A program made the position numbers and the translations under genes. 26,803 nt of DNA from a virus: positions 1 to 26,803 of IMG/VR virus record IMGVR_UViG_3300045996_001670. The stretch is one strand, 5' to 3'. The notes beneath the pieces are model-generated. The model did no database searches and was not told where the DNA came from. It saw only the letters and a program-made list of their open reading frames with translations. Shown here piece by piece: positions 20,414-26,788 of this stretch (positions are counted from its first letter, which is position 1; each line of letters opens with the position of its first letter).

Positions 20414-21221
20414 CGTTGGCCTCCTGTTGCTCGAGCCACGTTTGCGCGGCGCTGATGTTTCGGTTCTGGCGTAGCTGGCCTCGGGTGGGCGGCGGCTGCC
20501 ACAGGTGTTCGAGATTTTCGTCAGCGTTCAGGAACGTGGCGGCTTGCTTGACGTGCTCGGCGCCTTCATCGCCCTTGGCTCGCACGAAGGCTGCGTAACG
20601 CCTGACCGCGGCTAGTATTTGCTCGTGGCTTTGGCCTGATTTCAGCCTACGCCGGTAGGTCTGCTCGGCCTGCTTCCAGCGTTGGTCACCGGCCCGTTTG
20701 GGGTAGGCCATGCGCACTTCCTCGAATCGATCCGGCAAGCGCGCGCCGCGCGTCAGCGCGGTATCTGTTTCTGACTCTGAGTTCTGACATCTGACGTCTG
20801 AAGTCTGACTAAGGTTTTGTGTGGGTTCCGAGTGGGTTTCTTTTGGAACCGACGAATAACCCAGTGGGTTTTCTGTGGGTTCTGTTTCGGTTTTGTTTTT
20901 CCTCGGTCTGCCGCCCTTCCCGCCGTTGTTTCGGTTTGCCTCGGCCTTCTTTCCGGAAGCGGCGATCTCGGCGTCACACCTCTTGTTGTGCCAGCCATCC
21001 GACTCGAGCGTGAAGAACTCCCGCAGCACCGACTCGACGGCTTCCCGCTCCTGCTTGGTGTTGGCTCTGATGAGCCGGCAGGCCTGACCAATCTCGCCAG
21101 GGATGGGCTGCTCGCGCCGGTAATAGAGGCGCATCAGGCGGGTGTATGCCATGTCCTCCAGCCATGACAGGTGCGCTGTGTCGCCGTCGTAATCGCCGAG
21201 GTAGTGCTTATAGAAGATCAT
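20400..21221 (-). CDS. DUF1376 (YdaU-like) replication protein
   Basis: 273 residues; ATG overlaps the upstream stop (ATGA). The first 95 residues give the DUF1376 signature: YKHYLGDYDGDTAHLSWLED, AYTRLMRLYYRREQPIPGE and FFTLESDGWHNKRCDAEIAA. A basic Gly/Asn/Lys linker (NNGGKGGRPRKNKTE) follows, then a helical C-terminus (RFEEVRMAYPKRAGDQRWKQ; QAEQTYRRRLKSGQSHEQIL) resembling the DNA-binding/loader half of phage replication proteins. Such proteins are found where lambda-like phages place gene O; it is therefore a candidate initiator. The origin may lie in the linker-coding region, which has locally T-rich sequence on the plus strand (20810-20910). Confidence 0.85.
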   Translation of the reverse strand: MIFYKHYLGDYDGDTAHLSWLEDMAYTRLMRLYYRREQPIPGEIGQACRLIRANTKQEREAVESVLREFFTLESDGWHNKRCDAEIAASGKKAEANRNNGGKGGRPRKNKTETEPTENPLGYSSVPKETHSEPTQNLSQTSDVRCQNSESETDTALTRGARLPDRFEEVRMAYPKRAGDQRWKQAEQTYRRRLKSGQSHEQILAAVRRYAAFVRAKGDEGAEHVKQAATFLNADENLEHLWQPPPTRGQLRQNRNISAAQTWLEQQEANDASH

Positions 21222-21463
21222 GGCTTCACCCGTGCCCAGCAGCTCAGACCGTCACAATTTGGCCCGCAAGGGCATTGATCGACAGGCGCCCGCTGTCCAG
21301 CGCGGTAACCGTTTCTCTCTGCCCAGATACCAACTTGCACGAGGTTCTCCATTCGAAGCTTGCTCTTGATGTTGTGCACGTGCTGCCACAGTGTGGATTG
21401 CGCGATCCCGAGTGACTCGGATATCCGCGCTTGAGGGAAACCTGAAACCATCATTGAAAGCAC
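21218..21463 (-). CDS. LuxR-type HTH protein, probably 5'-truncated
   Basis: The open reading from a GTG at 21463 gives 81 residues: VSGFPQARISESLGIAQSTL, WQHVHNIKSKLRMENLVQVG, IWAERNG, a LuxR-type HTH with the closing L-V-Q-V-G-I-W. The usual first helix (here LSERERQVLSMMVSG) is coded upstream in the same frame but its start is lost: the coupled ATG at 21565 is followed after three codons by TAA. From that TAA to 21463 there is no ATG, GTG or TTG. So either the gene is a pseudogene, or translation begins at this GTG and yields a shortened domain. Second of three LuxR-type HTH genes in the early operon; its C-terminus carries a Cys cluster (CPCGPNCDGLSC). Confidence 0.6.
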   Translation of the reverse strand: MLSMMVSGFPQARISESLGIAQSTLWQHVHNIKSKLRMENLVQVGIWAERNGYRAGQRAPVDQCPCGPNCDGLSCWARVKP

Positions 21464-23740: not shown

Positions 23741-23841
23741 GCGCCACCGTGTTGTTGGAATTCGAGGTGGCTACGGATGATATAGATCAGGTCCGTACCC
23801 GCCACAAAACGACCATGGTTTGGCTTGGAAACCCGAGTCAT
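23737..23841 (-). CDS. 34-residue small ORF coupled on both sides
   Basis: ATG at 23841-23839 overlaps the stop of the HTH/zinc-ribbon gene (ATGA), and its own TGA at 23739-23737 overlaps the DUF4406 start (ATGA). The peptide begins MTRVSKPNHGRFVAGTDLIY and ends LEFQQHGGA. No family known. The exact coupling on both sides and absence of any other gene in this gap make it a likely real small gene. Confidence 0.6.
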   Translation of the reverse strand: MTRVSKPNHGRFVAGTDLIYIIRSHLEFQQHGGA

Positions 23842-24251
23842 GCGTGCTCCACCGGCTCATTGAGATTGTGAGCAAACAAGGCCGACTCGTCCCTGCGACT
23901 TCCGCGATCCTGAAGATCCGCGTATCCGCGCAGCGCCGCCCACGCCGTGAGATGGTGAGAGTTGATGCAGCCGGTGATGTCGAGCATCTCGGCTCGACGG
24001 TGCTTTACATAGCCAAGGTTGAGTCCCAGGCGGCTTGCAATCTGTACGCTCTCCAGGCCCTGGCACATGAACTGCAGGATCTTCACGTGCAGCGGCAGGA
24101 ATCCGTAAGCGTCACGGACAATGACAGTCTTGGGAGGATTGCCGGCAGCTCTGCGAGCGCGCCTGTACTGGTTGTCGCAGCGGGCGCAATAGGCTCGATT
24201 GAGCTTCGGGCGAATCGCGCACTTCGGACACATGCCATCTGTGCGCCTCAT
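23838..24251 (-). CDS. Zinc-ribbon plus LuxR-type HTH protein
   Basis: 137 residues; ATG at 24251 overlaps the upstream stop (ATGA). Zinc ribbon: C8-PK-C11 and C22-AR-C25 (CPKCAIRPKLNRAYCARC). LuxR-type HTH at about 52-110: LHVKILQFMCQGLESVQIAS, RLGLNLGYVKHRRAEMLDIT, with the closing segment HHLTAWAALRGY. A basic linker joins the two. No receiver, autoinducer or PAS domain is present. Third member of the same kind of regulator in this phage. Lying early in the operon, it is a candidate transcription switch or antiterminator; which one is not known. Confidence 0.8.
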   Translation of the reverse strand: MRRTDGMCPKCAIRPKLNRAYCARCDNQYRRARRAAGNPPKTVIVRDAYGFLPLHVKILQFMCQGLESVQIASRLGLNLGYVKHRRAEMLDITGCINSHHLTAWAALRGYADLQDRGSRRDESALFAHNLNEPVEHA

Positions 24252-24583
24252 GCCCGCACCTTCCGCGGATGCACGGTCTGGTACCGGGCGTTGTAAGCGC
24301 TCCTGCAGGGCTTGCAGTAAGGGCCGCTCTGCCGGGGCGCAGTGCCGCACTCGGCGCAGGGCTTCGCGCCGGTAGGCGGCGCAAGACCCATCAAGGCAGC
24401 AGCCCGTGCATTGCCGCGCTTCCTGCTGCGCGCCTCTCGTTCGATGTCGACATCTGCGAGCAGAGTCCGGGCATGCACTGGCTGCAGCGTCGAGCCGCAG
24501 TGAACGCAGCTCGATGATGCGTGCAGCGTGTCGCTGCGGCACGTGCGGCAATGCAGGCGCGTGAGGGCGGCGCAGGTGGTCAT
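24248..24583 (-). CDS. Double zinc-ribbon protein, first gene of the long early operon
   Basis: 111 residues from the ATG at 24583. Two zinc ribbons: C12-x2-C15/C26-x2-C29 (LHCRTCRSDTLHASSSCVHC) and C77-x2-C80/C91-x2-C94 (KPCAECGTAPRQSGPYCKPC). The middle is basic/helical (DIEREARSRKRGNARAAALM). The start codon lies only 9 nt downstream of a T-rich tract following a stable hairpin, and the ribosome site is weak (GGTGA). The second ribbon resembles that of its downstream neighbour (PKLNRAYCARC / RQSGPYCKPC), suggesting related origins. Probably nucleic-acid binding. Confidence 0.75.
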   Translation of the reverse strand: MTTCAALTRLHCRTCRSDTLHASSSCVHCGSTLQPVHARTLLADVDIEREARSRKRGNARAAALMGLAPPTGAKPCAECGTAPRQSGPYCKPCRSAYNARYQTVHPRKVRA

Positions 24584-25103: not shown

Positions 25104-25548
25104 GTGCCCTCCAGGGCAGTTGGGAACCTTCGGCACCGCCGCGAATTGCAGCCATGCCATGCGAAAAAGGGGGTGTGGTTAAACAAATGACCGACTGCCG
25201 GTCTGCTGCTGTCAGAACCCCCGCCGGCCGCACTAGTCCACTGCCCACCGGGCCGGCGTTCTGCGCGCCGAACGTCATTTGACTTACATTCGCGACATGA
25301 CGCAGCGCAGCGACGTGACCTTGGTACAGGTTCATCCCTGTCGGGGATTCCCTTAAGCTGCCGCAATGCACATGCAGCCTTTCCAAGCCGATGCGCGAGA
25401 AAGCTCGCGTACCCTCACACAAGCCCTCGGTATTGTCCGAAGTTGTCGACAATTGCTTACACGTGCAGCGTGTGTCGCCAAGGACAAACACAGTGCATTG
25501 ATGCGCGGACAGCGGGGAATTGGAGGGGGTTTTCATGGGCAAGCCACG
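25104..25548 (-). other. Untranslated or poorly understood stretch between cro and the 92-residue gene
   Basis: About 445 bp with no convincing gene on either strand: the ORFs here have no ribosome site or run antisense to known genes. It holds a perfect palindrome TTGTCGACAA (25443-25452) with a second TTGTC just to the left (25433-25437). Probably leader/regulatory sequence of the minus-strand early transcript; a very small regulator cannot be excluded. Confidence 0.4.
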
Positions 25549-25794
25549 TCAACCGTGGGTGCCAGCTCTTACGCTCGTGCCCGGCTGCGGAAGAGATCGG
25601 CCCGCAGCAGCGGAAGCAACAAGGTCATCTATAGACAAGCCAGTTCTGGCGGAAAGACGACGGAGATTGTGCAGAGAAGGGAAGCTCCCGCCGTTCACCC
25701 AATCCGAGACGCAAGGCTGCGAGACATCAAGGTCGCGAGCCAGGGCGGCCTGTGAGGTGCCGGTGCTTTCCAGCCAATCTCTGAGTACTTCCAT
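25549..25794 (-). CDS. Cro-like DNA-binding protein
   Basis: 81 residues. HTH at 14-36: SQAALARDLDVSQPCVSDWV followed by NGG, the Cro/CI-type fold, within the N-terminal EVLRDWLESTG...PSLHNLRRLSARTGLSIDDL frame. Opposite in direction to the repressor gene at 25868, as in lambda-like switches. The promoter-like TTGACG / TATTCT (25829-25824 and 25807-25802) puts the transcription start almost on the ATG at 25794, so the mRNA may have little or no leader. By family it represses the repressor gene and helps enter lytic growth. Confidence 0.85.
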   Translation of the reverse strand: MEVLRDWLESTGTSQAALARDLDVSQPCVSDWVNGGSFPSLHNLRRLSARTGLSIDDLVASAAAGRSLPQPGTSVRAGTHG

Positions 25795-25801
25795 AGCCCA
25801 G

Positions 25802-25829
25802 AGAATAAGCCATCCTTATGAAACGTCAA
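25802..25829 (-). promoter_or_regulatory. Probable cro promoter
   Basis: TTGACG at 25829-25824, 16 nt spacer, TATTCT at 25807-25802 on the minus strand. One operator-like copy overlaps the -10 region and spacer, a second starts at the -35 box. Start of transcription would be near 25795, next to the cro ATG. Confidence 0.55.
25805..25819. promoter_or_regulatory. Operator-like copy A
   Basis: ATAAGC-CAT-CCTTAT. Half-site ATA(A/G)GC with an inverted near-match after a 3-bp centre; same pattern as the three other copies in the window. Overlaps the -10 box of the cro promoter. Confidence 0.6.
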
Positions 25830-25843
25830 TAGGCGGAGCTTAT
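25829..25843. promoter_or_regulatory. Operator-like copy B
   Basis: ATAGGC-GGA-GCTTAT, 24 bp from copy A (start to start) and at the upstream edge of the cro -35 box. It differs from right-edge copy D by one base of the centre only. Confidence 0.7.
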
Positions 25844-25867
25844 CGCCCGGTCGTGCACGCTTTGGGG

Positions 25868-26287
25868 ATGACCAAAAAGCGCACAGTCTGGGCTCGAGTC
25901 CAGGAAGTTCTGATCGAGAACAAAAAAAAGGCCACTCAGGCTGCCGGTGCGGGCCTTGTGGGCTTGAAGCAACCCTCGGCTGCCCTTTGGAACAAGCCGG
26001 GCAATTATCCAGAAATGGAAGTGGCGGTTCGGCTAGCCGAAAAGCTTGGTGTGTGCGTGCAATGGCTACTGAACGAGGAAGGCCCGAAGCGCGTCCCGCC
26101 TGCCAATGATCCACATCTAGACGCGCTGTACCTGGTCTGGGCAGAGCTCACGGACGTGGATAAGCGAGACCTGGTTGGCTACGCAAGAGCCCGCGCCCAT
26201 ATGCTCAAGGAATCAACACAACAGCCAGCGGAGGTGAACAATGAAAAGCAGGTTGGCAGCAGTGGTGCTGCTGTCGGTGGCAATTAG
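25868..26287 (+). CDS. Short CI-like repressor
   Basis: 139 residues from the ATG at 25868 (a longer in-frame reading to 25520 runs antisense through cro and is rejected). HTH region: RVQEVLIENKKKATQAAGAG, GLKQPSAALWNKPGNYPEME, then VAVRLAEKLGVCVQWLLNEE, the usual layout of an XRE-type repressor. The C-terminal part (NDPHLDALYLVWAELTDVDK, RDLVGYARARAHML) is short and helical; no S24/LexA-type Ser-Lys peptidase is present, so RecA-triggered self-cleavage is not expected. Weak ribosome site (GGGG 0-4 nt from ATG); mRNA may be nearly leaderless. The 3' end overlaps the lipoprotein gene by 47 bp, implying co-expression in lysogens. Confidence 0.8.
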   Translation: MTKKRTVWARVQEVLIENKKKATQAAGAGLVGLKQPSAALWNKPGNYPEMEVAVRLAEKLGVCVQWLLNEEGPKRVPPANDPHLDALYLVWAELTDVDKRDLVGYARARAHMLKESTQQPAEVNNEKQVGSSGAAVGGN

Positions 26288-26558
26288 CGGGTGCACTTTC
26301 GCAAGCAAGACCTATGCGCCGGACGGCCGCCAAGCCTTCTCAATCAGTTGCGACGGTCTAGCAAATAGCTGGGCGGGCTGTTTCAAGAAGGCTGGCAGCA
26401 TTTGTAAGGAGCGCGGATACGACACATTCACGTCCTCCAGTGATGGTGGCGTGCTCGTCGCTGCGAATCCAGGCGCCTTGACGGCAGGCTCAGTGATAAA
26501 CCGCACATTGATCATCGCTTGCAAGGGGGCGCCAGTCATTCAGCCGGCGGGACAATGA
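26241..26558 (+). CDS. Small lipoprotein expressed with the repressor
   Basis: 105 residues; ATG with GGAGGTGAACA upstream, a near-perfect ribosome site inside the end of the repressor gene. Signal peptide MKSRLAAVVLLSVAISGC ends in a lipobox (AISGC), so C18 is lipidated. Mature part: TYAPDGRQAFSISCDGLANS, WAGCFKKAGSICKERGYDTF, then INRTLIIACKG with four more cysteines. The layout YAPDGRxAxxIxCxG...C..KAG..C...GY....IxCxx is a widespread proteobacterial lipoprotein family of unknown role. Located in the repressor operon, it is a candidate lysogenic-conversion or exclusion factor. Confidence 0.85.
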   Translation: MKSRLAAVVLLSVAISGCTFASKTYAPDGRQAFSISCDGLANSWAGCFKKAGSICKERGYDTFTSSSDGGVLVAANPGALTAGSVINRTLIIACKGAPVIQPAGQ

Positions 26559-26677
26559 TGCTTTGGTTCATCGTGATATTGATAATCCTGGTCGGCTGGG
26601 ACATAAACAGCAGGATCCGCAAGCTGGAATTGCAGCTCGAAGCCATATCGAATGCGATAGCTGATCTACGCCGCTAG
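26555..26677 (+). CDS. 40-residue single-pass membrane protein
   Basis: Begins at the ATG at 26555 overlapping the lipoprotein stop (ATGA). Sequence MMLWFIVILIILVGWDINSR then IRKLELQLEAISNAIADLRR. Hydrophobic helix 2-15, then a helical cytoplasmic or periplasmic tail with heptad leucines/isoleucines that could self-associate. Too short for most automatic calls. Last gene before the terminator of the repressor operon. Function unknown. Confidence 0.7.
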   Translation: MMLWFIVILIILVGWDINSRIRKLELQLEAISNAIADLRR

Positions 26678-26702
26678 CTCATCCACTCGAATCCGATCCA
26701 TG

Positions 26703-26727
26703 AACCCGGCCCAGCGCCGGGTTTTTT
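26703..26727 (+). terminator. Intrinsic terminator of the repressor operon
   Basis: Perfect 8-bp stem AACCCGGC/GCCGGGTT (26703-26710, 26716-26723) with a 5-nt loop, followed by a run of T (26722-26727). It follows the 40-residue gene by 25 bp and closes the plus-strand unit repressor-lipoprotein-membrane protein. Confidence 0.9.
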
Positions 26728-26745
26728 GTGCCCGCTCGAAAAAAT

Positions 26746-26760
26746 ATAAGCTCTGCCTAT
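26746..26760. promoter_or_regulatory. Operator-like copy C
   Basis: ATAAGC-TCT-GCCTAT, the same motif in the opposite orientation to copies B and D, ending at the upstream edge of the right-edge promoter's -35 box. Confidence 0.7.
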
Positions 26761-26788
26761 TGACGTCAATAATAGGCGGTGCTTATAT
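26760..26788 (+). promoter_or_regulatory. Promoter at the right edge, flanked by operators
   Basis: TTGACG (26760-26765), 17-nt spacer, TTATAT (26783-26788) reads rightwards out of the window. Copy D fills the spacer and -10 start; copy C abuts the -35. The palindrome ATTGACGTCAAT (26759-26770) also supplies a minus-strand TTGACG (26769-26764) with an AT-rich segment 15-17 nt away, so a weaker leftward promoter is possible. Confidence 0.7.
26772..26786. promoter_or_regulatory. Operator-like copy D
   Basis: ATAGGC-GGT-GCTTAT; identical to copy B except for one base of the centre. It is 26 bp (start to start) from copy C and covers the promoter spacer. Confidence 0.7.

Follow-up and report, generated by a model that had tools for sequence, protein, structure and literature searches.

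A single, self-cleaving repressor has usually been the setting in which the two-region operator logic of phage lambda is studied. The repressor of N15 and phiKO2, which lacks the conserved residues for cleavage, has three binding sites at OR and two at OL, and the CI and Cro proteins of phiKO2 differ in their site preference (PMC4997575). Phage 933W possesses five natural sites, which are 15 bp long and rotationally symmetric (PMC3317979), so that fewer than six sites is not unique to the locus described here. The whole stretch analysed (the window, 26,803 bases) is an entire virus contig, in which the gene order and orientation were those of lambda, namely cro, OR, cI, the rexA and rexB positions, and OL/PL. 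As in lambda, the repressor gene was flanked by two operator regions placed on outward-reading early promoters, one of which was the cro promoter.

The motif ATARGC-NNN-SCYTAT was matched with 0 mismatches at four sites only across the whole record. The initial annotation had reported this 15-bp motif at the same four positions with a pair spacing of 24-26 bp; the positions were exact, the start-to-start spacing within the pairs was 24 and 26 bp, and a spread over many unrelated positions was not seen. Its description of both promoters was also confirmed, with one pair on the cro promoter and the other on a plus-strand TTGACG-17-TTATAT. The cro promoter, equivalent to PR, was located on the minus strand at 25802-25829 (TTGACG at 25829-25824, a spacer of 16, and TATTCT at 25807-25802), where OR1 (25805-25819) overlapped the -10 and OR2 (25829-25843) abutted the -35. 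The rightward promoter, equivalent to PL, was located on the plus strand at 26760-26788 (TTGACG at 26760-26765 and TTATAT at 26783-26788), with OL2 (26746-26760) abutting the -35 and OL1 (26772-26786) overlapping the -10. Three of the four sites fitted the motif on both strands, and the site at 25805-25819 was off by one base on the minus strand. No third good site was found beside either pair. The contig terminated at the second promoter, 17 bp past the last site.

The cI operon was separated from the second promoter by a terminator-like hairpin with a T run (26702-26730, plus strand). A perfect palindrome, TTGACGTCAA (26760-26769), contained the -35 of the rightward promoter and also yielded, on the minus strand, a promoter-like match, TTGACG-17-TATTTT, that spanned the other operator. 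No position could be assigned to the cI promoter, and no Rfam match was found in the window.

Measured from the start of the -35, the operator centres were at -6.5 and +17.5 at PR and at -6.5 and +19.5 at PL, compared with -5.5 and +18.5 for O2 and O1 of lambda, whose own annotated operators were recovered by the same script as a positive control. Of the 12 measured promoters, 11 had the centre of the first operator between -5.5 and -6.5 and that of the second between +17.5 and +19.5, the exception being PR of the relative G006. At both promoters, as in lambda, O2 touches the -35 and O1 overlaps the -10, about 24 bp apart. The two sites per promoter in the window are therefore the O2 and O1 equivalents, and the absent one is O3. 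Two sites instead of three had been taken initially as a logic unlike that of lambda; the number holds, but the sites occupy the lambda O1 and O2 positions and several relatives keep an O3.

The cro-like gene (25549-25794, minus strand) was the first gene of the leftward operon and encoded an 81-aa HTH_3 protein (Pfam HTH_3, E 3.9e-9; phage repressor PHROGs) with a predicted five-helix fold (pLDDT 75); downstream of it on that strand lay genes whose relatives are of primosomal, terminase and portal type. The 139-aa product of the gene at 25868-26287 (plus strand) matched phrog_4 (E 3.8e-6), phrog_2328 (E 1.8e-5) and, weakly, Phage_CI_repr, and was composed of an HTH region and a short C-terminal part without a peptidase domain. 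Its position and these weak profile matches point, weakly but consistently, to a CI-like repressor. The single-sequence structure model of the repressor was of insufficient quality for a fold search, and the nearest matches of CI and Cro among solved structures were not significant. In the lambda rexA position lay a lipoprotein gene (26241-26558, plus strand; phrog_5685), 79% identical in the relative G001, which may have a role in superinfection exclusion or lysogenic conversion, and in the rexB position a small ORF of 40 aa with a hydrophobic start (26555-26677, plus strand). The loci L023-L039 were considered as switch relatives through the lipoprotein family and rejected, as in those examined the family adjoined tail genes with no switch alongside. 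In the leftward operon, small minus-strand proteins at 21218-21463 and 23838-24551 had, by eye, a LuxR/GerE-type helix-turn-helix look; similar ones were present in the leftward operon on the G001 side (L021 7367-7603 and 7534-7854), and one of these small proteins gave a weak sigma-factor profile match.

G001, the closest relative found (39,918 bases), reaches beyond the right end of the window. Its portal was 86% identical to that of the window by tblastn and 89% by alignment, and the DNA of the two phages was 77% identical over 25318-25451 and 80% identical over 26284-26677, which includes the small ORF. No DNA similarity was found in the intervening cI/cro stretch, and the repressor/cro pair of G001, between these conserved flanks, was unrelated to that of the window. 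The window's motif was absent from the G001 record. A different operator, TTTACCC-NN-GGGTAAA, was located just four times across that entire record when three mismatches were tolerated: one pair of sites fell in the gap between cI and cro, and a second pair at the promoter past the lipoprotein gene. As a fifth, weaker palindrome touched the cro-promoter -35, OR had three sites and OL two. In G001 the operators match between the two promoters, and they differ from those of the window together with the regulator genes. Such a joint change of both operator regions with cI and cro is expected if one regulator acts on the two promoters, and is not what a host regulator or chance predicts. The conserved stretch at 25318-25451 (minus strand), just downstream of cro, held no convincing gene and no Rfam match, and its conservation contrasts with the cro genes lying between it and OR, which are different in the two phages; a 38-nt core of it recurred in G002 at 82%, and it occupies the place of the lambda nut/terminator region.

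Relatives were gathered by portal alignment (80 viral loci), and an HTH_3 profile search was performed in 41 of their records. By this and a palindrome search, the same layout was found in five further relatives, each with an operator of its own: AATAGTG-N-CACTATT in G008, ATTAGAA-N-TTCTAAT in G043, ATAGG-N4-CCTAT in G031, ACAGG-N5-CCTGT in G006, and a further one in G019. Within each of the seven phages the two promoters carry matching operators, and these differ from phage to phage. Over whole records, the motifs of G008 and G043 were confined to the two operator regions, and the looser patterns of G006 and G031 had additional scattered matches elsewhere. When the palindrome search also required a -35-like hexamer next to the first site, a match was obtained in 13 of 126 real loci and in 5 of 378 shuffled loci. 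Six clear cases (the window, G001, G008, G031, G043 and G019) scored at least 4.64 and were bounded on either side by promoters pointing outward. The highest score of a shuffled locus was 4.08, and the remaining real matches, scoring 4.29 or less, were regarded as noise. G006 was taken from a relaxed scan and inspection, and its OR sites were spaced differently. An O3-like third site was present at OR in G001, G006 and G031, and a third site at OL in G008.

The repressors of five relatives, G001 among them, were 142-157 aa long; the one of G001 had no Pfam match and the others had HTH matches only, the HTH domains being clear in G006, G008 and G031. The G019 repressor had weak regulator-type matches. 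Neither an S24 peptidase nor a Bro-N antirepressor match was found in the seven records. The lack of a peptidase in the repressor, pointed out earlier as an oddity, was upheld as a fact; as an oddity it was not, since it is the rule in this group and has a precedent in N15/phiKO2. Beyond OL, a Sak4-like annealing protein was encoded in G001, G008 and G031, a phage SSB in G001 and G008, and a RecT-type annealing protein in G006; in these four the operon is the counterpart of the lambda PL operon, and the window's own right operon presumably carries recombination genes likewise. Integrases were found in G001, G031, G043 and G019, as expected of temperate phages. The cro ATG began 8 nt past the end of the predicted -10 in the window, and this distance was 6-8 nt in five of the seven phages (the window, G001, G043, G031 and G019); the regions concerned lay at 25794-25829 in the window, L021 6247-6284, L132 3929-3975, L133 560-610 and L073 1450-1495. 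With so short a distance the cro mRNA would be leaderless, whereas lambda cro has a normal leader.

Several other candidates were discarded. A palindrome-like repeat cluster in L145 was located inside a coding frame and left uncounted, and the matches in L135 and L143 were GC-rich repeats without the promoter layout. The exact motif combined with TTGACG returned four loci in viral contigs, each of them a fortuitous match within a gene of an unrelated contig. No relatives were found by searching viral contigs with the repressor or bacterial genomes with the lipoprotein, and no DNA match to the switch region was found in annotated phage records. In annotated phages and plasmids the repressor had just short, weak HTH matches, and MW202489 and BUCT555 shared the portal, yet no cI/cro pair was annotated in them.

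Given that the motif had been read off the sites themselves, a motif-free search was adopted, which required two clusters 250-3500 bp apart, each made up of a pair of similar imperfect palindromes at a distance of 18-32 bp. In the window its sole answer was these four sites, with any quadruple at all in 0 of 400 shuffles, and in 1.5 Mb of retrieved loci it returned only the counterpart quadruple of G001. This bears on the possibility that the resemblance is accidental and the motif picked after the fact, which could draw on the derivation of the motif and on the count with two mismatches allowed, unremarkable against shuffling. The mean number of exact matches expected in first-order Markov versions of the window was, however, 0.003, and the layout recurs in relatives, where the six clear cases outscore every shuffled one; already contradicted by this comparative result, chance has next to nothing left to recommend it. 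That a host regulator binds the sites, and by chance controls two phage promoters, is very improbable: the sequence by itself names no binder, but every relative has its own operator, and G001, with near-identical flanks, has a different palindrome at both promoters alongside a different cI and cro.

An unlikely reading, though less so than these two, is that the four sites bind the Cro-like protein only, for shut-off of early genes, with the 139-aa protein having its targets elsewhere or being no repressor. Cro is indeed the better supported DNA-binding protein by its Pfam HTH_3 match, and in phiKO2 the two proteins prefer different sites (PMC4997575). Nevertheless, the 139-aa protein matches phage repressor families and sits in the repressor position, HTH domains are clear in its G006, G008 and G031 counterparts, and no other operator candidate was present in the region.

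The locus is very probably a bipartite immunity switch of the OL/OR type, in which the short CI-like repressor would bind both palindromes at each promoter and shut both early operons. The initial proposal of one repressor for a leftward lytic and a rightward operon, much like OL/OR, gains support from the matched operator pairs in the seven phages. OR would serve the cro promoter and OL the promoter from which a second early operon is read; in the relatives this operon holds recombination genes. In a lysogen, the CI-like repressor would sit on two palindromes per promoter, the first in contact with the -35 and the second lying over the -10, and RNA polymerase would be kept off both early operons simultaneously; Cro probably shares some or all of these sites. 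In lambda, the operators are bound by CI as well as Cro, and OL is looped to OR by CI octamers. We infer CI and Cro as the putative binders of the four sites, and any cooperativity or looping between the window operators would be equally conjectural. Lambda-style self-cleavage through S24 is unlikely in this phage group because no S24 match was found in the seven records, and a repressor without a LexA-type peptidase domain would need an antirepressor or another route for induction.

A broader proposal, put forward tentatively and with considerable doubt, is that portal-related uncultured temperate phages keep the lambda O1/O2 geometry with short, peptidase-free and highly divergent repressors and exchange OR-cro-cI-OL specificities together. 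If so, the absence of O3 at both ends of the window would make a switch without the O3-based cI control of lambda and with a leaderless cro message. The same geometry in seven environmental phages, with varied operators, short peptidase-free repressors and an O3-like site in some, would offer a natural series for what O3, looping and repressor cleavage each contribute to the lysis-lysogeny switch, and matched operator/repressor sets could be used for predicting mutual immunity among phages.

N15/phiKO2 already provide a case of a bipartite operator served by a non-cleavable repressor. The window resembles their immB region (CB repressor and Cro) in having a non-cleavable repressor, an OR in the gap between the repressor gene and cro, and a second operator region beyond the repressor gene, at putative sites in the window; N15/phiKO2 have 16-bp palindromes and likewise two OL sites (PMC4997575; N15 record). 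Differently, N15/phiKO2 have three OR sites and the window has two, OL of N15 controls the plasmid replication gene repA whereas recombination genes and integrases lie beyond OL in the relatives of the window, and N15 is a linear plasmid prophage, unlike the phage of the window. The operators of N15 were not picked out by our palindrome search. Phage 933W belongs to the lambdoid CI group, and its likeness to the window is drawn from the description of site length and number. Compared to lambda, which has three sites per region and an S24 self-cleaving domain in CI, the window has two sites with no O3 at either end and a 139-aa repressor without S24; the operator sequence and arm spacing differ, a lipoprotein and a small ORF stand in the place of rex, and the centres of OL and OR lie about 0.94 kb from each other instead of 2.3 kb. 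Three sites per region and a self-cleaving repressor, both of them defining for the lambda arrangement, were looked for and neither was found, and the switch of the window was therefore classed not as a member but as a variant of the lambda-type immunity region.
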